Part shown: positions 9,427 to 64,000 of the stretch, piece after piece
Numbering within the stretch: the first letter of the stretch is position 1
Layout: the number at the start of each line of letters is the position of its first letter
Source of the DNA: Polytrichum commune
Taxonomy: Eukaryota > Streptophyta > Polytrichopsida > Polytrichales > Polytrichaceae
Assembly: GCA_950295325.1 (NCBI GenBank)
Contig: OX485807.1
Span: 42,438,440 to 42,502,439, forward strand
Direction of reading: 5' to 3'
Length of the DNA stretch: 64,000 nt
Translations under genes and position numbers: made by a program
Notes under the pieces: model-generated
Database searches by the model: none
Told to the model about the DNA's origin: nothing
Seen by the model: the letters and a program-made list of their open reading frames with translations, nothing else

Positions 9427-10400
9427 TGTCGCGCACCTCTCCATGAGGAGTGCCCGAAACACCATGGGCACAAGGGGGACCCCGGAGTGACACCCGGGAC
9501 TTGTGGCGCCGTTGGTGAGAGGGCCCAAGTGATCCTAGTGTGGGTGAGGGCCCCGGGCGTTGGGAACGCCTCCCACCCACGGAGACTAGGAGGCATGAGG
9601 GTAAGGCCATGAGCTATGCGTAGCTCATGGCGTGGTGATTCTAGAATGCTCAAGATCACCTCAATCGGAGGTGTGAGCTAGGAGTTATGGCCATTTGAGT
9701 GGGGCGCTGTCCCGGGACAGCGCCCTGGTGCAGCAGTGCCTGGGAGTGATTCCCGGGACTGCCAAGGTTCAAACAGGCATAACTTCCTCAAGACTTGCCT
9801 GAATGGGGCAAGTGAGGAGTCCATCGGCATCTACGTGAAGCGTAGATGAAGATGGAGTGGTCGCGTGTAAGCATCAGACATTGTACAAGGAAGTTATGAT
9901 GGTCTGAAGCTGCTGGGGGGTTCTAGGCCCAGCGGCTAAGGGAAAGTGTCCACTTGGCCCCAACTCTTGGTAGAGAGACAAGAGGTTGGCTGACGGTGGG
10001 GTAGGGGCCCCGCGTAGAATCCTAGAGGCTTATATGGGTGAGGTGGTGTGGCCTCACCCACCCGAGGCCGAACGGCAAGGCCTCCATGGGCAATGGCCCA
10101 TTGTGAGGCTATAGTTGCCTAGTATGGTTCGGGTTGTTGTAGTGTTGCTCCGGCAACGCGATGATCAACATGGGATTGGACTTCCATGGATGGAAGTCCA
10201 CATCTAGGAATGGGTTACCGATTAAGGGGTGAGTCCCGAAAGCAAAGTAGGAGGGTTGGTTCCCCTCCTATGAACTATAAGGTCCGGGGTAGGAGGAGCT
10301 AATCATTAGCATGGCGGAATGCGAATGGTTAGCACTCGTAACCTTTGCTAGAATTGAAAATTGGCAAGATTGTCAAGGGGGGCTAGCAAGGGTTGCGACA
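9427..10400 (+). mobile_element. Solo LTR of the same chromovirus family, inside the Harbinger transposase gene
   Basis: This is a full 974-bp LTR (TGTCGC...GCGACA) with a perfect 5-bp duplication, CTGCA, at 9422-9426 and 10401-10405. It differs from the LTRs of the surrounding element at several percent of sites, so it came from another family member. It splits the coding exon of the transposase: codons before 9427 and after 10405 join in frame when the LTR and one CTGCA are ignored. Confidence 0.92.
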
Positions 10401-12007
10401 CTGCACCTCCACCATCTCCGTATCCTCTCCGTTCGGGTGCACACACATCCGCTGCAGCCTCTCCGATCCCAACTCCACCAGCTGGAGCATGCACTTCACC
10501 CACCTCTGGCCGCGCTGATCCTTGCATCATGCCCCTAAACACACCACGTCATCCGAGATCACTCCTCACATCTGCAGTTGCCTCTGCCATTCCTATTCTT
10601 GTGGCAATCATAGACATGTCATTGGTTATGATGCACATGCATAATGCCTCGGTGGAGGCAACAAAGTCACTCCTATTGCACAGAAAGAAATGTAAGGTGG
10701 GAGTAGATGGCGACGGCATTTTGACATCGAGCAGTGTATACTCAAAGCAAGAATCCGAAGACGAAACACTGGCGCATCCACACGAGAAGCAAATTTTGGA
10801 CCTTGTTGCTTGGCACATTGACGACTTGGATGCAAAGTGGTACGTCAAACCAAGGTCCACATGTTGGTTTGAAGAGTACTTGTTCAACATCTACACCCCC
10901 GACATGTTCTACGACATTTTGAGAATGCGGCGGAGAACATTTGATAGGCTTGTGAATGATCTTAGACCTTTCATACAAGGACAACACACACATTGGAGAG
11001 AACCCATAGGAGTTGAAAAAAAAGTGGTTGTAACATTATTCAAACTCATGCACGGAGTTTCAATACCACTAGTTGCCGACAAGGCCGCACTTGGGAAATC
11101 AACGGTGCATGGAATTCTACGGCAAGTGTGCTCCGCCATTAGTGCGAATTTTGGCCACCTCATAGCGTGGCCGACTGGTCGAAGACTAGCAAGGGTCACA
11201 TCTGCTTTCCAAGCCAAACAGGGGTTGCCGAACTGTATGGGTGCCATAGATGGCACCCATGTGTACATTTCGGCACCGCCCAATAGCATTGTGGCGGCAG
11301 ACCACCGAAATCGCAATAAATCTTTCTCTATTTTGCTACAGGGTGTGGTGGACACTAAATGCTATTTCACATCGATGAACACCGGTCCTCCTGGTTCACT
11401 GCACGATAGCGCGCACTTCAAATCATCGGAGCTCTACAGGAAGGTGGAGGAGGGTGTTATGGGAGGATTCCACGACGATCCTTTAACGTGGCCCTCGGCT
11501 TTGCCATTTCCGCCCTACATAGTGGCGGACCGCGGGTACCCTCTCTTGAGTTGGTGCATGACACCATTCAAGATGGGACCCATGGGCATGGCTTTGACGA
11601 ACGAAGAGGTGTGGTTCAACCGCAAGCACTCATCCACCCGCATGTGCGTGGAGAGGGCCTTCGGCATACTAAAAGCCAGGTTCAAAGAGATTGGAGGAAA
11701 GTCATCATTGAAACTGGATTTTCTACCTACGGTTGTCCACGCGTGTTGTGTTATGCACAACATACTACTTGCAAGCAAAGACCGAACGCTTGACCAAATA
11801 CTTGCGGACTGCCACTTGCCCACAATGGAGGCGAGTGAACTCCTCCGAAGGGAGGAGGATGAAAGATTCCATCCTCCAAGACCAATGGGCCTTGTGAGTG
11901 AGGATAGGGCATTGTTGGAAGGGAAGATGGCGAGAGAGGACTTGTTGGATTATTTGGTGCGGAACCAAAACTCAGAGTACATAGCAAGACATTATCGGAG
12001 ACCATGA
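10361..12007 (+). CDS. HARBI1-like DDE nuclease of PIF/Harbinger
   Basis: The open frame is 548 residues, and the first 13 come from the solo LTR. Real transposase sequence starts at about residue 15 and originally continued upstream into 9310-9426. The first ~90 residues are Pro/Ser/Ala-rich. A helix-turn-helix-like segment (HGVSIPLVADKAALGKSTVH) is near residues 230-250. The catalytic triad is recognisable: Asp in MGAIDGTHVY (about 300), Asp in VADRGYP (about 390) and Glu in VERAFGILKARF (about 430). This enzyme cuts and joins transposon ends at YTA/TWA targets, normally in partnership with the Myb-like protein encoded opposite. The nuclease domain is free of stops. The LTR insertion probably removes its normal N-terminus and upstream exons. 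The annotated ATG in the LTR may not be used. Confidence 0.85.
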   Translation: MARLSRGASKGCDTAPPPSPYPLRSGAHTSAAASPIPTPPAGACTSPTSGRADPCIMPLNTPRHPRSLLTSAVASAIPILVAIIDMSLVMMHMHNASVEATKSLLLHRKKCKVGVDGDGILTSSSVYSKQESEDETLAHPHEKQILDLVAWHIDDLDAKWYVKPRSTCWFEEYLFNIYTPDMFYDILRMRRRTFDRLVNDLRPFIQGQHTHWREPIGVEKKVVVTLFKLMHGVSIPLVADKAALGKSTVHGILRQVCSAISANFGHLIAWPTGRRLARVTSAFQAKQGLPNCMGAIDGTHVYISAPPNSIVAADHRNRNKSFSILLQGVVDTKCYFTSMNTGPPGSLHDSAHFKSSELYRKVEEGVMGGFHDDPLTWPSALPFPPYIVADRGYPLLSWCMTPFKMGPMGMALTNEEVWFNRKHSSTRMCVERAFGILKARFKEIGGKSSLKLDFLPTVVHACCVMHNILLASKDRTLDQILADCHLPTMEASELLRREEDERFHPPRPMGLVSEDRALLEGKMAREDLLDYLVRNQNSEYIARHYRRP

Positions 12008-13133
12008 CAAATGAATGTGATTGAATTGAAATAGGTAGGGGGTGTACACAAAACCTGGTGAGTGCATCCATGGATGTGGCCAGCATGAGCAAAGCGCTCG
12101 TCATGTTCCCTAAATTTTTAGTTCTTTCAACCTCCAATTCATAAAGTTTCTTGTCCATGCTAGAAGCCTCCGCCTCTTTGTGTGCAATCCTTGCTTCTCG
12201 CGCTATGTCAAGTGCCATTACCTCACTCCTCCACAACCTCTTGTCTCTTTCTTGTGATTCCACCCGCGAAAGGTAGTCGTAGTTAAAGTCCTTGACGAAG
12301 TCCACGAGGTTGTCTGTGCCCGCCGCTTTGCGCTTCCGACCTGTTGAACCGGGCAAGTCGTCTCCGGGTGTGCCTACCATGGGTGAGTGAGGAGCGGTTG
12401 TGGCACTAGTGGCGGGGCTCCCAGCCTGCACAAATGTGGCTCCACGAGGCGAGGGTGGGGAGCGGCCAAACTGTCTAGCTGGTGGTGAACCCAATCGATC
12501 GGAGTCAACCACATCCGAGGCGCGGCCAAAAATCTGCCGCTTCCCAACAAAGCTCTCCATTTCATTGTACATGCCCTCGCTAAACTCAAGAGGCAATCTT
12601 CTTGTCTTGCACAACTCCCTTTTCTCCTCTCTATTCATGCCCCACCAATTCCCCGAACCCGTTCCTTCCAAGTATTCTTTTAGTTTTTTATAGTCCTTTA
12701 TCAATCCATCCCACTTGTTTGTCAATTGGTCAACATCTCTCACACGGAAACCCACCACAGCCATGCACCCGGCCAACACCGATTTCCACGCTGTCGTGCC
12801 ATAAACAAACTTGGCAAGAGATGGCTGACTACAATTATGCCTACCATCCCACTCTATACACTTTTGACCTATGAGGACCAACATTTCAGCCTCGGTCCAA
12901 TTGGGCCCTCGTAATTTGTGTGGAAGTGTGGTTTGGGATTGGGAAGCACCCTGCATCGACCTAGATGCACCATTTCTGCCCTTAGGACGGCCTCCCCCTC
13001 TGCTGCCCACGGGTGCGGAGGGCAGCTGCGATTGACTGTCAATGAACCCGGATGCATATTCGCAATCCCCAACCTGTGGTGCTTGAGATGAAGGACAGTG
13101 GAACCCCTCCTCCAGATCAACGATGTCGTCCAT
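11751..13133 (-). CDS. Trihelix/Myb-like DNA-binding protein of the Harbinger element
   Basis: The 460-residue frame starts with acidic and Gly/Arg-rich sequence. A trihelix domain follows at about residues 75-165, with the pattern GPNWTEAEMLVLI...W..V...C...G..RDVDQLTNKWDGLIKDYKKLKEY. A Ser/Pro-rich linker contains the basic motif GRKRKAAG, and an alpha-helical C-terminal part (ALDIAREARIAHKEAEASS) resembles the coiled-coil tail of such proteins. In PIF/Harbinger this second protein binds the transposon ends and helps carry the nuclease to the nucleus. It is encoded tail-to-tail with the nuclease. The last ~85 codons overlap the nuclease frame on the other strand and look non-genuine; a stop or a splice at CAG|GTTTTG near 12053 is more likely, so the true coding end is probably about 12050. 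Confidence 0.75.
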   Translation of the reverse strand: MDDIVDLEEGFHCPSSQAPQVGDCEYASGFIDSQSQLPSAPVGSRGGGRPKGRNGASRSMQGASQSQTTLPHKLRGPNWTEAEMLVLIGQKCIEWDGRHNCSQPSLAKFVYGTTAWKSVLAGCMAVVGFRVRDVDQLTNKWDGLIKDYKKLKEYLEGTGSGNWWGMNREEKRELCKTRRLPLEFSEGMYNEMESFVGKRQIFGRASDVVDSDRLGSPPARQFGRSPPSPRGATFVQAGSPATSATTAPHSPMVGTPGDDLPGSTGRKRKAAGTDNLVDFVKDFNYDYLSRVESQERDKRLWRSEVMALDIAREARIAHKEAEASSMDKKLYELEVERTKNLGNMTSALLMLATSMDALTRFCVHPLPISIQSHSFVMVSDNVLLCTLSFGSAPNNPTSPLSPSSLPTMPYPHSQGPLVLEDGIFHPPPFGGVHSPPLWASGSPQVFGQAFGLCLQVVCCA

Positions 13134-14858
13134 CCCTCAATGCGGGAACCGGTGTGGATGCACACAATCGACAAGATAGCAAGCCGTTGCATTGGCCAGT
13201 CTGCAACGAAATGAAACAAATCACTAAGAATTGAGTGCCAAGCAACGCACCGCTGCACGGCCACTGCCACAATGCCTTGGAGAGGGGGAACCCAACACCA
13301 ATTGAATAGACGCACGAATGTCCGAACTCGGACGACCAAAAAATCAATGCAGGAACGTAAATTCAGCCCCAGGCAGCACGGACAATGCAGATGAACATGA
13401 ATGCACTCGCCCCATTCTGGAAGACAAGTCTCAAATGAATTCTGGAATGCTACCCAAAAACACATGGCAACCGAAGACAGCACTACCCCACCAGTAATGA
13501 ACACTCTCACGGTCAAGCAGCAGCTGTTCGAAACTATGCATTCGTTCATTGCGATATTAACAAACTCGATGACTGGAAGTGCAACATGGCACAGACACTG
13601 CGTTCCTGAACTGTGTTGGCACGCGCCAACACCAACGAGGTATGCAGCTGCAAAGTTGTGCAGGGCGCTAGTCTGCAGATAAACAGTGAACTGCAGCCGA
13701 CGCTGCTGACAACGGCAGCGAGGAAAACCTCAGGCAGTATTGCGAGACGGCATTCGAATTGCTAGGGAGAATCCCAGAAGCATAGAATGGTGCGACTGCA
13801 CAGAGGCGATCACCAAAAACCAGCAGGCATGGAGCCCGACTGGCAGCACACACGGACCCAATTTCACAGACACAAAGAAGGCTCTGGCAATGAGGCCCAG
13901 GAGCACATGTTTCCAACAGCATAGACCACAAGCATCGTTGGAAGGCACATCCGGAGACCAATACAGAGAAGATAAAAAAATACAAGCAAAGGACTGCCAA
14001 GGACATCTGGGCAGCCCCGACTCGGGCGTGCCGGAATGAGCATACAAGCTGCAGGTAGGCTTGCTACGCCGACCGCCCGCTCCGGCAACAATCCGGGGGC
14101 AGCCACTTCGCAGAGGTCGTTGTGCATTAAAGGAAACGGGATAGACAAAGGAGGGATAACCCACAACCACAAAAAACAAGCCCAAAACCCGTAGACATGT
14201 CGCGGCGGGGTAGGGAACGGATGGGCCTGGGAGGGCCAATGCACCACAGAAAATGGACCTGATGACGCTAGCCATGAGAAGAGGGCACACAAGCAGCGAC
14301 AGACAAGACTCGGGGATCAAAAACATGCGGCAGAGACGACGGAAGAACGCCGTGTCGGCAAGCCATGGCGGTGCCTCTGCAGGCTGCCTACGAATGTGCA
14401 GATTGGCAGATGTGGCGCAATAACGACCGAGCCACAACCCTTCCCTACACTCCTGCCATGCCTCACGACGAAGATAGCATCGAACATTTGAACCCCCGTC
14501 AAAATGTAGAGCGTGCACACTCACCAGATTTGAAGGCTATGCAGTTCTCGAGGCGCAGCGAACGCATGCCCCCCCCTTTGCCACTCCCTGGGAGACGCAG
14601 ATCCTCGGACGCGGCTTGCAAACCATACACGCACATTCGACCTGGGACGCAACGAGCGTCCACGCCGAACGAAGCTCCCGCGAAAAAAAAATTCTTGCAG
14701 CAGAGCGCAAACCCTCCTGACCGGCCCCGCGGGAGCGGCGACCATGTCGGGTCCGACGGACAGCTGGTGGATCCACCGGGTGCGGCCTCCGGCAGTGCAT
14801 AAATACCGGTTGCGGCACCGGTCCAGGCCTGTGACCGCCGGGTGCGGCCCCCCCCTAG

Positions 14859-50763: not shown

Positions 50764-51464
50764 CCCCCTTATGTATGTACTAAAAAATCATCTAAAAATT
50801 GTAAAAAAAAAAAATGAAGTTGTTAAACACAATCTAAAGTTCTTGTTGTATAAATTTCAAAAAAAATCAATTGTAAATAACACTATATTCGTTAAATTGA
50901 GACTTTTTGGGCATTTTGAGACATTCACATAAATAAGAACAAGGATAAATGGAACACATATTGGAGAAAGTTGTAAGATGCGAACACTTTGAAGCAGGTG
51001 TTTAGACCAAGAACCCCATAAATAACTCATATTTGTGATGGTTTAGGGTGGGCAATCCAAATCTTAGACCACATTTAAGGGGAAACCTTAAAACATTCAT
51101 ATTATTGCACACAAAATATTAGAGCTTGTATGAATATGGTTTAGGTAGGGCAATCCAAACCATAGATCTTATTGAAGGGTTAATATGTTAACCAATATAA
51201 TATTGCATACAAAATATTCCAAACTCATATTTGTGATGGTTTAGGTAGGGCAATCCAAACCTTAGACCATATGGAAGGGGAAATCATGTCTAACTTGTAT
51301 TATTGCAAAAAAAAAACATACAAAGTGTGGCATGTAAAATGCATATCATGCTAACACCACACATGCATTGGATAGTGCGACCCAAAATGTTCTTGCCTAT
51401 GGCCCAAAACCCTACGCCTACTATGGCCTATCTAGCCTCGGATACTACCTCTTTTTCTTTTGCT
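50764..51464. other. AT-rich spacer with three ~100-bp tandem repeats
   Basis: GGTTTAGG(G)TRGGGCAATCCAAA recurs near 51040, 51130 and 51235 with similar following sequence. It may include the 3' flank of the gene at 51465. No other feature is seen. Confidence 0.6.
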
Positions 51465-52235
51465 TCATTTTCTTTTGCTTTTTTTTTCTTTTGCCTCTTT
51501 TTCTTTTGCTGCAGCTTCTTTTGCTCGCATTGCTTCAACATTCCTGAAAATCTCCGCCCCGCGACTATAGCCATTCTTGGGGTGAACGCCATCAATAACA
51601 CATTTTGTATTCCGTCGGCCGCCCGAATTATACGACGAAGAATTCGAATACGATGAAGTGGACTGTCTTGCATTTCTGGTCATGGAGTAGAAACGCTCCA
51701 ACTCGATGGACGCACTAGACCGCATAGGTTTACGGGTGGGAGCAACCTGCAACGCGTCAACGCACGAACACATGTGTTAGTTTAGGGAGGAAGACCCAAA
51801 CGTGTCACACATTCATTTTTTAAGTGCAAAATGATTGTAATGCGCGGATAACCATGTTTTTTTTTGGGGGGGGGGGTTCACCTTGTCACCGGGGGCGTTC
51901 CCGTCGGAGTTGGCGAGGAGGGGCAAGGCATCCCGCAAAGGAATAGGAAGGGTTCCACTCTTCGTAGGCCGAGCGTCCATCCGCAGCCGCCGTTGAGGTG
52001 TACTACTGCCGCCGGGCCGAGAGGGGGATGTCCGGACGCATTTGCGATTTATGCCTTTGAGCGGTGACGGGGACGCAGATCGCCGGAAGATTTGCTTGGG
52101 TGGGGGGCTATCGACGACGCCGGCGTCAAGAGGCTCCTTGGAGTAGTCGATGGTTGACGCGGCGTCATAAACGGTCTCGTAGAAGAAGCTCCCCAAGTCT
52201 GACTCGTTGACGACGTCAATCGAGGGCTCCAAACG
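51465..52235 (-). CDS. Two-exon gene of unknown function (copy 2; paralogue at 2096-3082)
   Basis: Exon A is 52235-51882 (acceptor GGCTCCAG|C, donor GACAAG|GTGAAC; 118 codons). Exon B is 51746-51465 (acceptor GTTGCAG|GTTGCT; 93 codons plus stop). Phase is kept. Exon A has an acidic N-terminal part (ESDLGSFFYETVYDAASTID) and a Pro/Ser/Arg-rich middle. Exon B has ELERFYSMTRNARQSTSSYS and a strongly basic Lys/Ala/Glu helix at the end. The same layout is found at 2.1-3.1 kb. No known domain is recognised. The acceptor-like start suggests an upstream exon; the nearest candidate, the FCP1-like exon at 52379-53191, ends in its own stop in frame, so a join is unproven. Alternatively translation begins at the ATG at 52268. 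Confidence 0.65.
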
Positions 52236-52378
52236 CTGGAGCCAAAATTGGAACAAAACAAAACCCAAGGAAAAGGGGGGAGATAGAGCGCGTGAAAATC
52301 AAGATACATATGAAGCGTAAATTACACAAAATGGGTAGGCGCATATACACACACACACATACAAACACACGTACTGTC

Positions 52379-53191
52379 TCAAATGAGCTTGTTAAATTTT
52401 GCGTGAGATAACAACTCTCTGTACAAATGGTCTCGTGGATCCAAGTATCTCTCGCCTATGGGATTATTCCTAACAAAATTGTTTACGGGAAGTCCACTTC
52501 CCCAGAGCGCCTGGAGGTATTTACTAAGGTCTAACAAAAATCGGTCCCGGACCTTCTCGACCGTCCACGTAGGGCACACTATGAAGTTGGCCGTCGGGTT
52601 CAACATGTTCTTTGCGGCGCTGTCGTCCACCATGAGCGTGTTCTCGCGGGTGGGGCGGACGTCGTAGGGGACGCCTATCAAGGACGGTCGCTGGTCCCAA
52701 AAAATGGGCTTCAAGACCTTGAGGTATTGGGGGGAAGCGGGGTTGTTTGGTTTTTTGACGACTTTGCCGTCCTGTGTGTACAATATTCTACAGGCTTCCT
52801 GTGCTAGGACCATGCAGGGGGGCTCGATGCCCTTGAAGATGAACTCCACGACCGCATTGGTGTTCTCGGCCGTCATGGAGCTCCACACGACCACCCACCA
52901 TCGTTGTTGGGCGATCTGGAGGAAGGTCCGAAGCCACAGGCGGAGGTGAACTAGTTTGCTCTTTATGAACGTGGGCGGCCCGTCGTAATTAGCGTCCTCG
53001 GGCTTGCAAAAGGGCACTGTGGGGGCCCTAGGGCAATGAACGCACTGCACGAGGACACCGTTCAGGTCTAACACCAGGAATCGTTTCTTCGGCAGCGGGG
53101 GCGGGGCGGGTAAAACCGGGGGGGCCGCCGTGCTGCCCTCTGCGCTCCTTGGAGAAGAGCGTCGGGGAGCCGCTACGCTATGCTCCGAGCC
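52379..53191 (-). CDS. FCP1/NIF-like HAD phosphatase domain exon
   Basis: The exon begins after a strong acceptor (TTTCTCTCGCTCGTATCCGCAG) and runs 270 codons to TGA. After a Pro-rich leader comes RFLVLDLNGVLVQ, HAD motif I with the first Asp kept and the second replaced by Asn (DLN rather than DLD). Motif II follows in WWVVVWSSMTAENTNAV and motif III/IV in LMVDDSAAKNML...NFIVCPTW. The layout matches the FCP1-homology (NIF) family, which includes RNA polymerase II CTD phosphatases. Whether the DxN variant is active is uncertain; similar plant forms exist. No start codon lies in the exon upstream of the domain except an internal Met, so a 5' exon is missing. It starts only about 270 bp beyond the stop of the large minus-strand gene, so it may be an alternative 3' part of that transcript or the remains of a separate gene. 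Confidence 0.72.
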   Translation of the reverse strand, partial: GSEHSVAAPRRSSPRSAEGSTAAPPVLPAPPPLPKKRFLVLDLNGVLVQCVHCPRAPTVPFCKPEDANYDGPPTFIKSKLVHLRLWLRTFLQIAQQRWWVVVWSSMTAENTNAVVEFIFKGIEPPCMVLAQEACRILYTQDGKVVKKPNNPASPQYLKVLKPIFWDQRPSLIGVPYDVRPTRENTLMVDDSAAKNMLNPTANFIVCPTWTVEKVRDRFLLDLSKYLQALWGSGLPVNNFVRNNPIGERYLDPRDHLYRELLSHAKFNKLI

Positions 53192-53461
53192 CTGCGGATA
53201 CGAGCGAGAGAAAACGGGGGCGACTTATGTCATGCTATGTCCAAACGAAGCATTAAGGAAACGAGCGTTCTCGGTGCAAACACAAAAGCATTTGATTCAT
53301 TTTGGAGGGGGTGCAACAAGGGATACAAGGGATACAAGAGCATACAAAATACATTCAAACACAATATACAAGTATATAGGAGTCAAAAATGGTGATTATA
53401 TTATATACAATGCTCTATGTACATCTTGATTGGGGGAGCCGCGTTGAACGATGCGTTCAAA

Positions 53462-56400
53462 CTAGCCTACTTCTACATCTAGAAAAAATTGAAGAGACGG
53501 GCCGCCGTGATGAAGACTTCGTTGCAAAGCCGGGGGTAGGTGGACGAACGAATGGTCGCTGGGGGTGACGAAGGGCGCGAGTGCCGGGGGGGGCCTAAGT
53601 TCGTCCTAGCTAGGGGACACGACCAAGGCAAGAAGTCAAAGACCCAGGAAGTTTGGGTCGGCCGACCCAAACTGAGTGGGGTCAGTGCATTACCTCGCCT
53701 TGGTCGTGCCTTGACGACGTTGATGCCGGCATCGCGTGCGCTGCCCCACCTCTGTCACCGCCGCCTCCGACGACGCCGTCAGCCGCAACCTGCTCCTGCA
53801 AAGGCTGACTGTCAGGCCTTTGTCCCAACCCAACCTCCGCATGCGCATCATGCATTGGTTCATCGACTGGGTTAGGAGTAGAGGTATCACCAGGCCCTTG
53901 CGGGCCTTCAACATCTAGCATAGGCTCGTCGACCGGGGTCTGATGGGGGACGGGGTTTGGGTCGGCCGACCCAAACCCTGCTGCTTGGCGAGGGTCGCTC
54001 TGCGACGCTGCAACGTCGGCACTGTTTGGGTCGGACGACCCAAACATGTGGGGGTCGTCCCGCTGGTGGTGTGGGGGCAAGAGGATGGGAGGCCGGAGCG
54101 GGGGGGGTGCCAACGAGCTGGACGCTCCGGGGACGCGCCAAAGGTTTGGATCATCCACCTGCTGCACAGGCGCGTAAGGACGGGCGTGCGGCTGCAGCAA
54201 ATCCGCGAAGCTGAAGGAATGCTCCAACGCCGGCCGCGGGCGGATATCCTGTGGAGGGAAGCCTGCGGGCAAGTGAGGGAATGAACTCGGGGGAGCCATC
54301 ACCAATCCCTGCGCCAGCATGCCCTGGATCACTTGCGTGATGAGGTCCGCTTGGGACGGAGTTTGGGACATCGCCCTTTGCCGCTCCTGCTCCAACAGGA
54401 GAGCCCTCAACTCCGCGACTTCGTTGCGGACAGAGGGTTCCTCGGCGGCAGCCCTCTGCAGTCGCACACGCTGCTCCTCGTCTCGGAGCATTTTTGCGTT
54501 CGCCTCCTCCACGGTGAGGACCTCCGGTTTCACCCTCACATTCCCGGCGAACGCTCTGGGGGAGGCAGGATCAGACCTCAGCTTCTTGGCGAGTTCCATG
54601 TCGTCCTCGTCCTCGGAGCTTATTGCGATCGTCTCCTCCACCGCATAGTCCCCGTACAGCTTCTTCCCCTTCATCCTTCTACGCTCCCTGAAGGTGGCCG
54701 TCGCGTCCCTCGAGTACATATCCTTGGCGTCGTCCACCGTCAACGCGGGCACCAGCCTGCTCTGCGGCGTGGCAGGCCGCATGGCCTTCTTCCGCTGAGG
54801 GGCCTCGGATTCTTGAGTGAATCCTGTTGCCCCTTCCTCCACCTCCCCCTCCACTTTCTCTGCTTCCTCCTCCGCCTCCTCCTCGTCTTCCTCCCCCTCC
54901 TCCCCAACCCTGCCACCTGCTCCCATAGACGGATTGCCCGGATGCAACCCGATGAGCGGCTCTGGCAATTGAACGGGGGCCCGCATGGCGAATTCACCCG
55001 GGTTGATTCGCCTCGCAATATCCAAAGGATTCTCGCCCCCCTCGACGATCTCTTCGACGTAGGATCCGGGTATCCAGTCGAGGATGTCCATTCTCTTGGC
55101 CAGCGCCTTTTGGGTCCTGTAGAATTGAACATCGGCATCCTCTACATAGGAGTAGATGTTCAACCCAGACATCTGCACAATCAAAATCAATACTATTAGT
55201 AACACCAAATGAACATATAATGGAAAATGACTTCCAAACAAAATAAGAATAGTTAGTTTGGGTCGCTCGACCCAAACTATGCATGGCCCTAGTTTGGGTC
55301 GAGCGACCCAAACTGTGCATGCCCCTAGTTTGGGTCGTTCGACCCAAACCGAACGTATAGGGACTTCTGGGTTTTCTGCTTACCATGGCTGCAAAAATCG
55401 GTTTGGACCCCCCGAAAACGTTGAAGATGCAGTCCCCTCTCTTCGTGAGGGTCCTCATCATCCGCAGGTAGAACTCCATGCGCAGCTCATCCGCGGGGTA
55501 GTTGGCGTACTTCGCCTCGTCATATAAGCTCCTGCTGGTACCCAACCCTTCTTGGACTTGGAAGAGCTTTTCCATCCTGGCTATGGGATGGTTTGGCACC
55601 TTAAGCAGCTCAGCTTTGTACACGAAGTACAAACACAGCACGTTGACGATCTTCGTCTTCTTGTCTTTCAGCGTGCTGTACGCCCCCTCCGCCGGTGCAG
55701 CAACGTAGTGAGATTTCGAGACGGCATACTCCGGCTGCAATTTGCGCACGATCTCGTAAACCTGCTCTGCCCTTCTGTCCTCGACAATCCAGAGCCAGAC
55801 GTCGACCTCCCTGAATTTGGGGCTGGCGTAGTCCACGAACTTCGACAAGAAAGGATCGTAAAAAGGGGTGCTCATAGTCCCCTCGAATGAGGCTCCAGGG
55901 ATGTTCCTGAAGTCTATCATTCCGAAGGGGAAGCGGTCCCCGGCTCTAGTCCTGATCGCCTTCCTTGACTCAGAACCCGGCCAACCCTGGATCCTGAGAG
56001 GTTCGACAGTGACCATGTTGAATTGCGCATCGCCTTCGAAACTGACGATCTTCTTCTCCTTTATGAAGTTGGAGAAGGCCCGCACTGAGTGTTCGGGAAG
56101 CGCCCGGTTCCTCCCCCCCTTCACGAGCTTGGATCTGAGGAAGTCGTCTCCCGCCTCCCTCATGAGTGCCGCCATGGACGCACTGGTAAACTTATATTCG
56201 GCTTTGAAGGCCCTCCAGTGCGCCTCGTCGACCTCTCCGTCCACGATGAGCTTCTTCTCTGGCACAAGCTTGTGCAGCTCCTGGACGATGGTCGTCTTCT
56301 TCTTCCTGTTCTCCGTCCATTCCTTCATTGTGTAGCATGAAGGGACGAAGATCTTGGGTTTGGTGAAGACGATCTTAGGGTGGACCCAGCATCTCTTCGC

Positions 56401-58304
56401 CGTCGTCTCCACGTGTAGGATGTGGGACGCCGCTTTTCCCATCTCTGTCTCGGAGAGACCTTGAAGCGCTCTGAAGAACTCCCTCACCAGAGGCTTCATT
56501 TGCTTGAAGCGCGTAGTCTGGTTGAAGAGCATGCCGGTGTCGGGGTCCATGAGGTCCCCCGTCTCGTGTTTTTCAAAAACACTCTTCCATCTTGCCCATA
56601 CGGAATCGGACGCTGTGATCAAATAGATTTCTCCTCTCAGCTCGTTATACTTTTTCTGCTTGTGGCTAGCATTGTCGATCGAGGAGAATTTATTGATCAT
56701 TTGATATTTGAAGTCCTGCACAGGAAGACATTAGCACATGTTAGACAACACATAATGGAAAAACAAATGCAACAGCAGTTTGGGTCGAACGACCCAAACT
56801 ATGAACCTGGCGAAAACATCTTAACAATTTCAGAGTTTGGGTCGACCGACCCAAACTATGAACCTGGGGACAATATCAAAATAATTTCAGAGTTTGGGTC
56901 GACCGACCCAAACTATCAACCTGGCGATGACAACAAAACAATGTAGGAGTTTGGGTCGATCGACCCAAACATACTCACCTCCCATTTGGGGTTCTTGTCT
57001 TTAGCATTCTCCCTTTCCTTGGGAGGCCTTCCATAAAACTCCCACACCTCCCTCGAGGCCATGATGTTTCTGATCCACGATGCCTGATAGGCCCTCTTTT
57101 TGTTCCCCATGTTGAAGAACCTGGAGATGTCGCTGAGGACCGTCTCGTTGTCCGACCAAACCACCAAAGCCTTCCAAACTTTTAGCTTCTCCTTCTGGTT
57201 GTTCGGGTCGTCCCACTCGGTCATCAGCTGGATTTTTTTCGAGGCCTCCACACTGTGCTGCCCGTCAATCAGCCAGAAGTCTCCTTTAGAGATTGCCGGC
57301 CACATCTCAGGCGTCGGCATTCTTTTCAGCCCTTGTGGCATGACAACAATTGTCTGCCTGTCGTCCTTGAACTGCCCGCCCAAAATTTGAGCGACCATCC
57401 AGTCGACGTAGGCGTCCTCCTTGGCTCGGACGCACTTCTCTGGTGGCGCAAGGTGGCACTGCGCAATGTTGACCTCGAATTTGAAGTCCCTGCCCATGAA
57501 GAAGCAGTGCAGGCATTTTGTCTCGAAGTTGTTGTTTATTTTTTGTATTTCGCCTGCATCCACCTCTTGGCCAGGCTTCGGCATCCGGAGCTCCGGGGAA
57601 ACAGGCTCGTCAGTCATCCCCGATGACTCTCTTCCCCTCTTGGAAGGGGTCGTCTGACGGCTTCCTGATGGCGTTGGCGTCTCGCTGTCAGCCGGCGTTG
57701 TTGTAGTGCTCGTCCGTCTCGAGTCTGCAGGGACCGCCCGCGGTTTCCTCACAGTTTGTGGTCTTGAGGACCCTGCGCCTTCTTCCGTCGTTGCCTTCCG
57801 CCTCACAGGCTGCTGCGTCTTGGGTTTGCTTTGCAGCGCCTTGTTGAGAACCGTGATAGCCTGTTTTAACTTCGTGAACCTGCTCGCAACCTTCGTGTTC
57901 GTTACACTACCATCTATGAATATGGCCTCTGGTTTTATGGTTTCAGGGTCGACGCAAGTCTCCTTGGCGTACAGGGGGTCGAAGGGCTCGGAGAACTGGT
58001 GCATGAACATGTGGACGTTCTGCACGGCGGAGTTCTCCAGTATCACGTCTACGTAGTCCCCGAGAGACTGGACGGACGCAACCTCCCATCCCGTCAGCGT
58101 TGCCCAGGTGTGCTGCTCGTGGGTCCCCACCTTCACCACGAATAGCAGCTTGAACATGGATGCCTTCACCACCTGAACGGACCATGCCAAAACGACGCCA
58201 TCTTTTGGGACGTAAGAATCGTCCTGTGGAGTTTCATACTCCTGCCAAAGGTGGTCTGGCGCGAGCATGAACCACCTTTCACCTGGTCTCTTTTTAGGGG
58301 CCAT
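53462..58304 (-). CDS. Large protein with ParB/DGQHR-like and amino-methyltransferase-like segments
   Basis: Four coding exons splice in phase: 58304-56979, 56715-55384, 55172-53694 and 53605-53462 (donors GAG|GTGAGT, ATG|GTAAGC, GAG|GTAATG; acceptors GTGCAG, TGTGCAG and, less surely, GCTAG). The product is about 1,426 residues. The start ATG follows an acceptor, and a non-coding exon ends at 59075 (AAG|GTAAGC). Residues 180-270 are basic and Ser/Thr/Pro-rich. Residues 344-356 read WLIDGQHSVEAS, like the ParB/DGQHR core, followed by a helical stretch. At 848-886 YPADELRMEFYLRMM...KRGD, FNVFGGS and FAAM resemble motifs X and I of beta-class N4/N6 amino-methyltransferases, continued in exon 3 by YVEDADVQFYRTQ. 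The (D/S)PPY motif expected near 746-755 is replaced by VDVWLWIVED, so activity is doubtful. Exon 3 then has an acidic block, a coiled coil and a disordered tail. The ParB-then-methylase order is known from phage and bacterial DNA methylases; homology here is inferred by eye. Confidence 0.7.
53652..54044. repeat. Palindromes, cluster 1 (one in intron, two in exon 3)
   Basis: Exact copies of TTTGGGTCGNNCGACCCAAA lie at 53652 (centre GC), 53956 (GC) and 54025 (GA). The first is in the last intron. The other two are inside the coding exon and are translated as FGSADPN and FGSSDPN without breaking the frame. Confidence 0.95.
55257..55348. repeat. Palindromes, cluster 2 (36-bp period)
   Basis: Exact copies start at 55257 (centre CT), 55293 (AG) and 55329 (TT), exactly 36 bp apart. 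The 16-bp spacers are similar (CTATGCATGGCCCTAG and CTGTGCATGCCCCTAG). All lie in the intron between coding exons 2 and 3. Confidence 0.95.
56779..56969. repeat. Palindromes, cluster 3 (57-bp period)
   Basis: Exact copies start at 56779 (centre AA), 56836 (AC), 56893 (AC) and 56950 (AT), exactly 57 bp apart. The 37-bp spacers are related (all begin CTAT.AACCTGG). They fill most of the intron between coding exons 1 and 2. Confidence 0.95.
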
Positions 58305-58332
58305 CTGCAATCCAAGAAATCGAAACTGTGAG

Positions 58333-58953
58333 TTTCGGTCGATCGACCCAAAGTATTGCAATGTGCATTTAACATTTGGAGGATTGACCCAAACATTTAC
58401 TTAATTTTCAAAGTCGTTTTAAAAGATCTTTTAGATTTTAAAGTGTGGTTTAGGTGGTCACCCTGTAATGTTTGGGTCGAGCGACCCAAACATGATGAGG
58501 CTGCAAATTTAGGTATCTCAACACATTCATTTCAGACTGCAATGTTTGGGTCGAACGACCCAAACAATTACTTAATTTTGGAAGTTCTTTTATATTTTAC
58601 AATGTGGTTTAGTTCTTCTCCCTGTAATGTTTGGGTCGAGCGACCCAAATATGTTAGGCTGCAAATTTAGGTAGCTCAACCCATTCATTTCAGACTGCAA
58701 TGTTTGGGTCGAACGACCCAAACATTCACTTAATTTTCAAAGTTCTTTTATATTTTACAATGTGGTTTAGTTCTTCTCCCTGTAATGTTTGGGTCGAGCG
58801 ACCCAAACATAATGAGGCTCCAATGTTTGGGTCGCTCGACCCAAACAAGAGGCTGCAATGTTTGGGTCGAACGACCCAAACATTTAGTTCATTTTAGGCT
58901 GCAATTCAAATATTTATTATATTTTAATATGAGTTTGGGTCGTCTCCCCAAAC
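58333..58953. repeat. Palindromes, cluster 4 (~158-bp higher-order period)
   Basis: Exact copies lie at 58471 (AG), 58545 (AA), 58631 (AG), 58703 (AA), 58788 (AG), 58826 (CT) and 58861 (AA). Decayed ones are at 58333, 58375 and 58934. AG and AA centres alternate, so the real unit is a pair of about 158 bp. All lie in the 5' UTR intron. Confidence 0.95.
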
Positions 58954-59074
58954 TACTGTGTTTCCAGATGCATGTTTAATGCTTGGGCAACATATACAAT
59001 GCTTATGCATTGTATATGTAACAGGAACCTAAAGGGAATGATGCAAATTGTGTGCACTGATGCAAATTGCTTAC

Positions 59075-59330
59075 CTTGTCTTTCAAACTCTTGAAAGCTG
59101 CTCTCACAATCTGCTTCTTACAACCAGACTCAGAAACTCTGTTGTGGCACTAAAGAACAACTCTCACAAAGATCTCAGAAACACAATGAATCTCTCAAGC
59201 ACCCTAAAACTTTCTCACAAACCCCCTGATTCTTGCAAACTCAGGCCTAATTTGAAAGACCTCTACATTTCTATCACACTCGACCGTGCTCACTTCTACT
59301 CAACCTAAAATCACTCCATGCATGAATTTT
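59075..59330 (-). other. Probable 5' UTR exon of the large minus-strand gene
   Basis: A strong donor (GACAAG|GTAAGC) ends this segment at 59075, and the first coding exon begins with ATG right after an acceptor at 58305. No ATG in the right phase is seen here, so it is taken as untranslated. The intron between (59074-58305) holds seven exact and about three decayed palindromes. Confidence 0.5.
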
Positions 59331-59379
59331 ACAAAACAAGTAAGGAGTTCAACACAATAAACCGCTCCGAACTCATTCA

Positions 59380-59690
59380 AAGCTAACACTCTGGACCAAG
59401 AAGAGAGAATAAGAAGAGGAAGACAATAACACGAGGAATAGAATGAGAGAAGAGGAGGAGAAGCATCAGAGAGGAGGAGAGGAATGAAGGAGAAAGAAGA
59501 ATGAAGGGAAGCGGCGCGACCAAGACAAAAGCAAAAGGTGCGAGAGGAAGCGCTTGGCGCGGCGCTATGGAAAGCGGCGGCGGCGTTTCCAAGAGCGGCG
59601 CTTGGCGCGGAGGAAGAGAGGAAGAAAAAGAGAGAAAGAAAAAAGAGGAGGGGAGAGAAGGAGAGAGCGGAAGGGGTCACCCTAAACCCT
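59380..59690 (-). promoter_or_regulatory. Pyrimidine-rich putative promoter region
   Basis: Read on the minus strand the interval is long runs of CT (for example CTCTTCTTATTCTCTC), like the Y-patches of plant core promoters. It lies just upstream of the probable 5' UTR exon. No clear TATA box is seen. Confidence 0.35.
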
Positions 59691-59699
59691 CGAATCCGG

Positions 59700-61300
59700 G
59701 CCATTAGATTGCGCCGGGCCCATCAACGGCTCAGAAGCCTCGCGGGCCAACACCTTGCCAGGTGTCGACACCTCCTTGGTTTAGGTGGTTGCCCGCGAGG
59801 CTTGTGGTGTTGACACCTGCCACCCTAGGGAGATTGCCTTCCTGGTTGTCCTTGCCCCTAGGTGCGGGACATAGGAGGGCCGGCGCCTCTCTTGGCCGCC
59901 CGGCCCCGGCCTTCTAACCCGCTATTCATTAGCGGCAATTCAATACCAGTCAAAAACCTACGTGGACTAAGGTATTCCACAAAATTAACACCATCACCAA
60001 CTCATATTTTAATGGTGTTCAATTGAATGATCACCCGTTGGAATTGATAACATCGTTGAATGTAGCCATTATCGTTTTGGTGTATGAATAATGTAATTTA
60101 TGGAATCATATGAGAGTGTTACAAAGTCTAAGAGGAGTAAGTCATAATTATATTGCAATCCACAAAGGCAATTACACGGTGCAATAATATAAATATGGTA
60201 ACCATTCACATGGTTAACAGTTTAGGATTATGTATTGTAATTTATATGATGGTTGTTGGTAGAGGACAATGCTCTAGTCTATAATGGATACCCTAACAAG
60301 TAGCATTAGAGTGAACATTAATATATGTACTTAGAAGTTCACATTTGAAGTACATGGGAGAAACAAATGATTACAAATGTATCTACTGCAACCCCATGGA
60401 GTTCACATATCATATGAAGTCATTTAAACATTCAGTTTGATGTTTGATGATGCCTGAACCCTAAACCCTAAACCCTAAACCCTAAACCTTAAACAACACA
60501 AACCATAACTGGATGGCACATAGGTCAAATGACATGGGCCTTGGTGCTTGTAGTTTCCAATACAAATGTATATTGTCATCACAACATCCTAATTCACAAA
60601 CGTGAAAGATGGATGTGTGGTTTTTCACGAATGAACGCACTAAAGGAAATAAACGATATTGTGCTCACAAGTAGGTGATACAATATTAACCTATAACCTT
60701 GTCACCTGGTAAGAAAAGCATAAGAACTAGATTATAATGGATAGGATGTTGTTCATGTTAACATGTTATTTGGAATAGTGAAATATTATATATTAATTTA
60801 AAGTAGATTTCATGTTGTGAATGATATGAGGACATACCTTTTGAACTTTGCATGTTTTGCTCACACACATTGGTAGAGTTCAAGGGACTTCACGATAGGT
60901 TCAAACATCCTTGGAAGATTGAACGTGCCAAATGTCATTTGTGGTTTAGGGTTCCATTAATGACTTCCACATAGGTACTAGGTTATTGTCACACTTGGAG
61001 TCTTGAGGATGAAGCAATATTGGGTGCACACATTACAACACAACATATGTTCTTTTAATTAGCAGAAATTGAAAGTTGGCCAAATTATTCAAGTTTGTCA
61101 TGGCATTAATTATTTGTTTTCAAAATATAAGTCCTCATGTGAGAGTCTAAATAATAGCATTAACTATTATATTTAGTGACTTTTAGTATATGAAGTTTTA
61201 TAATACATGCACATCTTTTGTCAATATATTGTTTGAAATATACCATAATGTTTGACTACAAGTAGAGTAAAACCCCTTAATAGATATAATCTTACATATT
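59700..61300. other. Spacer: GC-rich inverted motifs, then AT-rich DNA
   Basis: 59690-59950 is GC-rich, with GCCTCGCGGGC near 59737 and its inverse GCCCGCGAGGC near 59790, plus GGTGTCGACACC. The rest is AT-rich without a supported gene. Confidence 0.5.
60459..60492. repeat. Interstitial telomere-type repeat (CCCTAAA)n
   Basis: Four CCCTAAA units and one variant lie in tandem. This is the Arabidopsis-type plant telomere motif. The tract is short and internal, so it is not a chromosome end. Confidence 0.85.
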
Positions 61301-61437
61301 GTCATAGGGTTATTGGTATTTAGTGTATGCGTTCATATGTAGTGTATCAAAACCTTTATATCCTTTTTAGTTATATGATAGTTAGTGTTTGATACACTTA
61401 AAACGAACGCATACACTTCCCATTACTAACCCTATGA
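61301..61437. repeat. Imperfect long hairpin
   Basis: Arms of about 50 nt share TCATAGGGTTA, AGTGTATGCGTTC and GTGTATCAAA in inverted order, with a ~35-nt loop. It is probably a foldback MITE. Confidence 0.65.
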
Positions 61438-62059
61438 GAGTAAGTAACATTAAATGTAAACTCAAACACTAAATATCCACTATGGTGATATATGGAAGTT
61501 ACATATAGGGATTTAGTATTAGTAAGGATGTGAGAAAAATATACAACAATGATAAAAGGAGAAAGGAGATGGCAATAGGGAAGGTGGTGGTGTATTCATG
61601 TATAAAACTAATTATGAAAGAGTTGAAGAATAGTGTTGACCAAGTTAGGGTGGTAACAACTTTAAATATATGTTGAATTATTCATTTGGTGGTTGGGGCA
61701 ACGAAGAGCCAAGCTAAATATACATTCTCTATTATTGACAAGAAGCGGGAAATTGAGTCAGAAGGTTTGAATTAACATCCAAAGGAGACCAGGTGGGAAA
61801 GGCATCCAAAGAGGATGCCCAAAGCGGAGGCGGGTAGTATAAAGAGCCCAACCCCCCCAAATGCTGGTTCTTTCTTTCATGTCCCAATCCTGAGATTGCT
61901 GCAAGCTCTCTAAGTTGGAGCTGTAATACACGGTTTGTATACGCTTCCATTCATGAGCAGCTAATTACAACAAGCATCTATGAGTTCAGTTGTCCCAAAT
62001 AGGTTATAAATAGATTAATAGAGCATCACCCGAATAAATAGGCGGATTTTGCGGAATTG
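61438..62059. other. Spacer before the 78-bp array
   Basis: AT-rich DNA. A 72-aa minus-strand frame at 61732-61950 has no recognised similarity. Confidence 0.4.
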
Positions 62060-63250
62060 TTTGGGTCGGTCGACCCAAACCCAGCCTTACAGTGTGGGTG
62101 CTCTCTGTATTGAGCCAGAACCCATCCTGCCTCAAGGTTTGGGTCGATCGACCCAAACCCAGCCCTACAGTGTAGGTGCTCACTGTTGTGAGCCTGAACC
62201 CATCCTGCCTCATGGTTTGGGTCGATCGACCCAAACCCAGCCCTACAGTGTGGGTGCTCACTGTTGTGAGCCTGAACCCATCCTGCCTCATGGTTTGGGT
62301 CGGTCGACCCAAACCCAGCCTTACAGTGTGGGTGCTCTCTGTTGTGAGCCTGAACCCATCCTGCCTCATGGTTTGGGTCGATCGACCCAAACCCAGCCCT
62401 ACAGTGTGGGTGCTCTCTGTTGTGAGCCTGAACCCATCCTGCCTCATGGTTTGGGTCGATCGACCCAAACCCAGCCCTACAGTGTGGGTGCTCTCTGTTG
62501 TGAGCCTGAACCCATCCTGCCTCATGGTTTGGGTCGATCGACCCAAACCCAGCCCTACAGTGTGGGTGCTCTCTGTTGTGAGCCTGAACCCATCCTGCCT
62601 CATGGTTTGGGTCGATCGACCCAAACCCAGCCCTACAGTGTGGGTGCTCACTGTTGTGAGCCTGAACTCATCCTGCCTCATGGTTTGGGTCGATCGACCC
62701 AAACCCAGCCCTACAGTGTGGGTGCTCACTGTTGTGAGCCTGAACCCATCCTGCCTCATGGTTTGGGTCGGTCGACCCAAACCCAGCCTTACAGTGTGGG
62801 TGCTCTTTGTTGTGAGCCTGAACCCATCCTGCCTCAAGGTTTGGGTCGATCGACCCAAACCCAGCCCTACAGTGTGGGTGCTCATTGTTGTGAGCCTGAA
62901 CCCATCCTGCCTCATGGTTTGGGTCGATCGACCCAAACCTAGCCCTACACTGTGGGTGCTCACTGTTGTGAGCCTGAACCCATCCTGCAAAAAGGTTTGG
63001 GTCGCTCGACCCAAACCCAGCCCTCTAAGTGTGGGTGCTCCCTGTCGTGACCCAAAACCCATTCTGCCAAAAGGTTTGGGTCGCTCGACCCAAACCCAGC
63101 CCCTAAGTGTGGATGCTGTCTGTAGTGAGCCTAAACCCATCCTGCCAGAAGGTTTGGGTCGCTCGACCCAAATCCAGCGCCTAAGTGTGGGTGCTCTCTG
63201 TATTGAGCCTGAACCCATCCTCCCAAAAGGTTTGGGTCGCTCGACCCAAA
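62060..63250. repeat. Palindromes, cluster 5: 78-bp tandem array, 16 copies
   Basis: Exact palindromes start at 62060 and then every 78 bp (one step of 79 and one of 78 near the end compensate) to 63231. The first twelve have AT or GT centres and the last four CT. Spacers are conserved (CCAGCCCTACAGTGTGGGTG and TGAACCCATCCTGCCTCA). Because 78 is divisible by three and the unit lacks stops in several frames, long spurious ORFs occur on both strands. The array ends about 215 bp before the next gene's first ATG. Confidence 0.95.
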
Positions 63251-63464
63251 CCCAGCCTCTAAGTGTGGTTGGGATCTGGGTGCCGGTGTGGCCACTGGCC
63301 TTCCGAAACCTTTACAAGCCCAATGGCATAGCAGTCATATGAACTTGTATGAGCACTGAGTATTTGCAATTTTGTTTATATATGATGGTTTTTTTGTTCT
63401 TCGATTTGAACCTACAATTTTTGTGATTTTAAGACAATGTTCAATGTTCATGTGTGTAGGCAGA

Positions 63465-64000
63465 ATGGATGGGTTTAGTGAAATAGGGGATTGGTCATCT
63501 GATGACATGGCCACTTGGCCATCTGCATCTGATGATGACCTAGACATTGTCGGGGAGGCTACTATGGCTGACAGTGCGGATGAAGATCATTTGGATTTAC
63601 CTTCGTCTTCCGTACCGCAGTGTCCCATTGTTGAATGTACGGGACTTTCAAGGGCTTCGTGGGTGAATTTGGAGGTGATACTTCTTAACGATAGTGGAGT
63701 TGTTGTGGCGGAGGGGATTTGCCGTAACACCCATCCGCAAGATTGCATTGATGAAAACCCGCTTGGCACTGAGGACGTTGGGGTTGTCATATTGGAGTCG
63801 GTCGTTCATTCCGAGGTGGATCCCACTCATAGGTTCTCCCTCCGCAGGTGGCCATTGAGGAATGTCACAATTGATGGAGTTAGCTTGCGTGAACATGAGC
63901 AACGACACATGCAAATCGAAAAGGAGGTGCAATCAAACATGCGGCCGCGCAAGGGTCAAAGAAAGTACGATACATTGGCACGTCCTGCTCCGTCTGCAAC
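63465..64000 (+). CDS. 5' part of an unknown protein, runs off the window
   Basis: An ATG at 63465 follows a TGTGTAG acceptor by five bases and opens a frame that stays open to the window end (178 codons). The first ~45 residues are acidic with Ser/Asp runs (WSSDDM, SASDDDLD). Then comes a compact-looking segment, CTGLSRASWVNLEVILLNDS, GVVVAEGI and LGTEDVGVVILESVVHSEV, ending near WPLRNVTIDGV. A basic stretch, MRPRKGQRKYD, follows. The layout loosely recalls the beta-rich domain that precedes transposon-associated regions in some plant proteins, but I cannot name a family. The first exon is probably non-coding and upstream, which would put the 78-bp palindrome array in or next to its 5' intron, as in the large minus-strand gene. 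Confidence 0.6.
   Translation, partial: MDGFSEIGDWSSDDMATWPSASDDDLDIVGEATMADSADEDHLDLPSSSVPQCPIVECTGLSRASWVNLEVILLNDSGVVVAEGICRNTHPQDCIDENPLGTEDVGVVILESVVHSEVDPTHRFSLRRWPLRNVTIDGVSLREHEQRHMQIEKEVQSNMRPRKGQRKYDTLARPAPSA

Follow-up and report, generated by a model that had tools for sequence, protein, structure and literature searches.

A 64,000-nucleotide stretch of the genome of the moss Polytrichum commune (C5:42438440-42502439; the window) contains most of a single 16,183-bp DNA transposon, element A, whose genes are interspersed with exact copies of a palindromic word, TTTGGGTCGNNCGACCCAAA (Table 1). A pattern search of the window yielded 33 exact matches spanning 53652 to 63250, all of them within this one element, vs. 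a mean of 0 in 100 dinucleotide shuffles. The original prediction, made from the sequence alone, had reported the same 33 copies, divided into 17 (53652-58880) and 16 (62060-63250) with none upstream of 53652 in the window, and this division and the positions of the copies were recovered; the extent required a correction, as the transposon holding all the copies continues for 3 kb past the window. Tandem Repeats Finder backed the claim of different array periods (36, 57, 158, and 78 bp) with different repeat units, and all nine reported forms of the central dinucleotide are present. The conserved unit is closer to 22 bp, GTTTGGGTCG-NN-CGACCCAAAC, than to the proposed 20 bp, with a G/C pair flanking 132 of the 140 exact copies at the first sampled loci. 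The window has no Rfam match at gathering scores, the 78-bp array has no match in a plasmid collection, and literature matches listed for the two 9-bp arms are apparently chance primer matches.

Table 1. Element A, its genes, and its palindrome arrays (window coordinates).
Feature	Position	Strand	Basis or remark
DNA transposon A	50879..67061 (window part 50879..64000; last 3,061 bp beyond window)	.	Ends from comparison with copies B, C, and D
Accessory gene exon 4 (3' end provisional), with an FCP1-like (NLI-interacting-factor) phosphatase domain	52420..53191	-	Pfam, splice model
Single palindrome, intron 3 (53192-53693)	53652..53671	.	One exact copy there also in B, C, and D
Accessory gene exon 3, 1479 bases	53694..55172	-	Splice model, open frame
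Two palindromes, coding exon 3	53956..54044	.	Two exact copies also in exon 3 of B, C, and D
Intron 2 array (55173-55383), 3 palindromes, 36-bp period	55257..55348	.	Pattern search, Tandem Repeats Finder, splice model
Accessory gene exon 2, 444 amino acids (P0006), 1332 bases	55384..56715	-	Genomic copies of exon 2
Intron 1 array (56716-56978), 4 palindromes, 57-bp period	56779..56969	.	Pattern search, Tandem Repeats Finder, splice model
Accessory gene exon 1, 442 amino acids (P0005), 1326 bases	56979..58304	-	Splice model
Array 5' of accessory ATG, probable intron of 5' untranslated region (5'UTR), 7 exact palindromes between its donor and the ATG	58471..58880	.	Acceptor before ATG and donor near 59073, by eye
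Array 5' of transposase ATG, 16 palindromes, 78-bp period	62060..63250	.	Pattern search, Tandem Repeats Finder
Transposase gene start	63465..64000, continues beyond window	+	Open reading frames; DUF7869 in second part

Sharp element ends were obtained by comparing element A with three other palindrome clusters, copies B, C, and D, all located on C1. Element A is bounded by a 28-bp terminal inverted repeat (TIR), AACACTATATTCGTTAAATTGAGACTTT, and by a 4-bp target duplication, AAAT; the corresponding duplications of B, C, and D, read by eye, are ACTT, AAGG, and ATAA, and a similar unoccupied site is present in the D stretch. Most palindrome arrays lie in non-coding parts of the element, 5' of the transposase and accessory genes and inside the accessory introns. 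The same plan is seen in B, C, and D, each with an upstream array, copies in the 5' region and in every one of introns 1-3, and two exact copies in exon 3. Imperfect relatives of the palindrome (TTTAGGTAGGGCAATCCAAA and near variants) occur in left subterminal repeats at 51042-51259, between element positions 164 and 381, and also in B, C, and D, and may be transposase sites. Four CCCTAAA telomere-type units were noted inside the transposon at 60459-60486; they are also found in B and, in a shorter form, in C and D. The CpG observed/expected ratio of the four elements (0.74-0.77 vs. 0.36-0.71 in the flanks) is compatible with low methylation, but it is confounded by coding content and was not used as evidence.

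The transposase gene encodes a DUF7869 domain (PF25273, E 1.1e-42), a domain on which a literature search found no paper, and its reading frame changes near the window-equivalent positions 65021-65045, reflecting either an intron or a defect. Its relatives, among 120 listed, include proteins of the mosses Ceratodon purpureus and Physcomitrium patens (both at 50% identity). Splice sites of the accessory gene were picked by eye, its coding parts being backed by outside homologues; the lengths of exons 1-3 are all multiples of three, in a single frame. The FCP1-like domain (PF03031, E 2.1e-13) was detected on the open reading frame (ORF) 52382-53224, and apart from it no Pfam family matched the accessory protein (P0005 and P0006 regions). 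A likeness to methyltransferases was looked for in this protein and not found, and PDB sequence searches returned nothing or chance matches. Three database homologues (P0002-P0004) match the accessory protein at 72-73% identity and, as known from the proteins alone, carry V-W-V-x-R-P-K or L-G-R-x-T-Q-T where they read through intron 1 and/or intron 2; the palindrome yields these peptides when translated. Among 1,236 candidates, 95 scored genomic copies of exon 2 (the window's own included) are 91-100% identical to it, and eight of these, again including the window's own, tie at the top score with 100% identity; therefore, the element family seems to have been active recently, which would be consistent with a working escape system without being proof of one.

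Genome-wide (408 Mb in 64 contigs, C1-C7 being 78, 70, 59, 59, 53, 45, and 42 Mb long), the search yielded 9,731 exact palindromes, vs. 0 for a backward-read control. Identical copies of the word were also found in a second family, which we regard as MULE-like (Mutator-like), represented by clusters at C1:438, 463, 475-478, and 2154-2160 kb (elements E, F, G, and L003). Target duplications of about 9-11 bp together with TIRs are characteristic of MULEs, and element E displays both: imperfect TIRs of ~57 bp (the inverted termini match over 57 bp at 88%) and a target duplication, AGTTGGCAT(G), that by eye measures 9-10 bp. Its minus-strand gene looks MULE-like by eye, a SWIM zinc finger match (PF04434, E 0.075) being below the cut-off. 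Its accessory gene, on the plus strand, has a DGNH motif in the first exon, and a later ORF of the MULE-like accessory gene (L026:3273-3731, C1:2163273-2163731) matches PHROG DNA methyltransferases (E 5e-5 and 1e-4) and no Pfam family. Profile comparison revealed no detectable homology (no significant match) between the A-type and E-type accessory proteins, their DG-x-H motifs being in register at E 0.12 only.

Comparison of element copies indicates that the arms of the palindrome are under strong purifying selection. Between A and D, third positions of exon 1 are 49% identical; fourfold sites are saturated relative to the older copies C and D (46/151 identical for A vs. D). When A is compared with C or D, identity in the spacers of introns 1-2 is 49-58% (46-48% in shuffled controls), intron 3 being better kept (67-68% vs. 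42-43% when shuffled), and all four elements retain exact palindromes in each of these three introns. We further compared against the window 20 of the 95 scored copies of exon 2, with introns 1 and 2, plus copy B. The four most diverged aligned copies have changes at 3/486 arm positions (0.6%) vs. 310/1142 spacer positions (27%), and codon positions 1, 2, and 3 differ at 61, 46, and 359 of 1776 each (20% for the third), so that the rate of arm change is below that of second codon positions; the centres differ in 26 of 54 (one unmatched palindrome left out). The ratios for arms and spacers are 3/450 and 217/1380 in five middle copies (10 palindromes left out), 0/1026 and 6/2733 in nine close copies (6 left out), and 6/252 and 142/871 in three copies with shifted arrays (7 left out). 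Palindromes that had gaps or over three changes in the arms were omitted, which biases these values toward conservation; unfiltered, the 21 copies give 67/2320 for arms vs. 675/6126 for spacers. The fetched DNA, 331,669 bases in all, holds 506 sites when up to three mismatches in the arms are allowed; 418 of them are exact, and 69, 13, and 6 have one, two, and three changes, respectively. Neither of the two patterns named in advance as contrary to the original prediction, namely arms that vary freely or a single recent local satellite with a shared spacer, was encountered.

The prediction of a free centre did not hold on the genome scale. The central dinucleotide is purine-pyrimidine in 5,678 of the 9,731 copies, of uniform type (two purines or two pyrimidines) in 4,015, and pyrimidine-purine in only 38, all of them TG or CA, vs. 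~430 expected for the latter by simple arithmetic under base independence (assuming equal numbers of purine and pyrimidine pairs); TA and CG centres are absent (0/9,731). These sites are not independent, as copies within arrays share descent, and pyrimidine-purine centres seem to have arisen only a few times because ten of 12 loci sampled for them appear, by spacing, to share one array type. Nevertheless, TA and CG are missing from both families and from many arrays, which suggests a possible readout of DNA shape at the dyad, as used by dimeric proteins. Arms at a spacing of 3-12 bp occur at 172 places vs. 9,731 at 2 bp (0-1 bp being outside the search), and those listed with letters all represent one other 29-bp sequence or its near variants. 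The 2-bp spacing is preferred and, within the spacings tested, fixed. The wider-spaced relative, TTTGGGTCGAGCA(TTT/AAA)TGCTCGACCCAAA or near variants (e.g., C1:1020528-1020556), looks like one dispersed repeat. Asymmetric centres seem to flip between near-identical elements (55173-56978; copies L042-L061), suggesting core inversion: in intron 2, the centre of the second palindrome is CT in the window, L042, and L045 and AG in B, L043, L047, and L048, with only 0-1 spacer changes relative to the window.

The closest parallel to this arrangement is provided by VANC, the anti-silencing system of Arabidopsis VANDAL transposons (PMC5735166, PMC10398659). The VANC21 motif, YAGTATTAY, is reported as quickly changing tandem repeats that lie within VANC21 and VANB21 introns and in front of VANA21 (PMC5735166). 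Both systems are DNA transposons with accessory genes and display motif arrays in accessory introns and upstream of the transposase gene, the motif being kept while the tandem repeats turn over; because the array plans match, we propose that the moss arrays may work like VANC. The motifs differ in that the moss word is a palindrome of 22 bp whose 2-bp centre is restricted, that of VANC21 being a directional 9-mer, and in that the moss word is common to two transposon families. Element A also differs from VANDAL transposons in having a DUF7869 rather than a MULE-type transposase, with 28-bp TIRs and 4-bp duplications. The resemblance is one of layout; among literature matches listed for palindromic transposon-encoded anti-silencing, only the two VANC papers were relevant. 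A partial analogy is offered by En/Spm (CACTA) elements, in which the element-encoded TNPA protein binds many subterminal copies of a motif and is linked to demethylation. Element A likewise carries many copies of a short motif for which an element-encoded binder is proposed, but its exact sites are internal rather than subterminal and its TIR has no CACTA start. Its 4-bp target duplication resembles that of Sola-type DNA transposons, which duplicate 4 bp. The palindromic nature of the site is shared with bacterial ParB-parS, and the segment of accessory exon 1 that carries a DGQH motif resembles a ParB-like PHROG family weakly (E 0.3, not significant).

Taken together, these findings agree better with a DNA site for a dimeric protein than with an RNA hairpin or a passive satellite. 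Among the three options considered in the original prediction (a dimeric protein site, a recombination site, or an RNA hairpin), the first is the best supported because of the fixed symmetric arms, the 2-bp spacing, and DNA-level selection acting alike in introns, 5' regions, and a coding exon. We propose, with a probability of about 0.5, that the palindrome is a recognition site for a symmetric, probably dimeric, protein, and that the accessory protein or a relative binds it in a VANC-like manner. In this mechanism, the ~22-bp GTTTGGGTCG-NN-CGACCCAAAC would be recognized by such a protein, the accessory protein of the element itself (or its relative) would bind the arrays, and the bound arrays would keep the genes of the element expressed or unsilenced; we infer the binding, the identity of the binder, and the anti-silencing or activating outcome. 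A moss-own anti-silencing code, in which one palindromic word common to two unrelated families would be read by transposon proteins with ParB-like and methyltransferase-derived domains, the protein, once loaded, acting or spreading element-wide, strikes us as quite unlikely.

Several observations weigh against the proposed VANC-like protein site. In 110 of 140 copies (51.5 expected), the two bases just outside the 22-bp core are complementary to each other, mainly as one of three types (G/C, A/T, and T/A). Such pairing is not predicted for a simple protein site, although the copies amount to perhaps seven independent observations because each array is one descent group; template-switching repair of near-perfect palindromes is one possible cause. 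One-mismatch sites in the fetched DNA (69/506) count in the same direction, as do the 6 and 9 sites with one mismatch in C and D, respectively; in both of these copies stops interrupt the exon frames, and such stops together with mutated sites are as expected of dead copies. Pfam and PHROG scans recognized no DNA-binding domain in the A-type accessory protein, and an AlphaFold model of its homologue P0003 is useless (mean predicted local distance difference test score, pLDDT, of 31). Finally, the binder could be a host factor, because the MULE-like family has the identical word together with an accessory protein that is not detectably homologous.

The latter alternative, namely a host transcription factor whose site was recruited as an enhancer by each of two unrelated transposon families, draws on the identity of the palindrome between DUF7869 and MULE-like elements that have different transposases and accessory proteins of no detectable homology. 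We nevertheless rate it as unlikely, given that all matches listed (C1:438280 to 2159694, in the first 2.2 Mb of C1) fall by coordinate in examined elements of the two transposon families, and that 12 of 12 loci sampled elsewhere, picked by their rare pyrimidine-purine centres, match A-type sequence outside the palindromes (most of them have a short E-type match as well, 598 bases long in L033); enhancers would also be unusual inside introns 1-3 and coding exon 3. Binding of the arrays by the transposase, as internal assembly or enhancer sites for transposition, would account for the imperfect relatives, such as TTTAGGTAGGGCAATCCAAA, in the left subterminal repeats, but appears improbable for exact palindromes that begin 2.8 kb from the left end of the element and stop 3.8 kb from the right end, and that recur in a MULE-like family with another transposase.

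A role of the palindromes as RNA hairpins or DNA cruciforms, e.g., in the control of splicing or small RNAs, could be argued from the fact that introns 1-3 and the probable 5'UTR intron contain perfect inverted repeats, from the mostly complementary outer pair with its three main types, and from the apparent core flip, which hairpin intermediates would allow. It is considered very improbable: among the 506 sites in 331,669 bases, 0 of 13 double arm changes are compensatory, implying that the arms keep their sequence and not merely their pairing, and copies are also found 5' of a gene and in a coding exon. The same apparent core flip, which could have other causes, would be compatible with a site-specific recombination site; this option is not supported and is taken as less likely, as no recombinase domain turned up in the scanned ORFs and TA and CG centres are absent. 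The growth and shrinkage of arrays between copies is what neutral satellite spread or gene conversion would produce, but conversion tracts would need to end at ~22 bp in many unrelated arrays, and the arms are kept between A and C/D while the spacers of introns 1-2 are near random, making this explanation extremely improbable.

Other features of the window lie outside element A. A 72-bp tandem array of 39 units occupies 3471-6276, its minus strand reading as what we take to be a leucine-rich-repeat-like protein. At 10358-13136, a DDE_Tnp_4 transposase ORF (PF13359, E 3e-32) is accompanied by an ORF on the minus strand whose Myb/SANT-like match falls just below its cut-off, a gene pair that we assume to be of Harbinger type.

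To our knowledge, VANC is the main worked plant example of transposon-encoded, sequence-specific anti-silencing. If the proposed reading of the P. commune palindrome is correct, such systems would have arisen more than once and may have aided the success of transposons outside flowering plants. The palindrome is long, exact, and easily counted, so that direct tests can be made of its binding, its preferred centres, and any effect on methylation. The occurrence of one word in two transposon families raises the question of whether they share a regulator or one element exploits that of the other.

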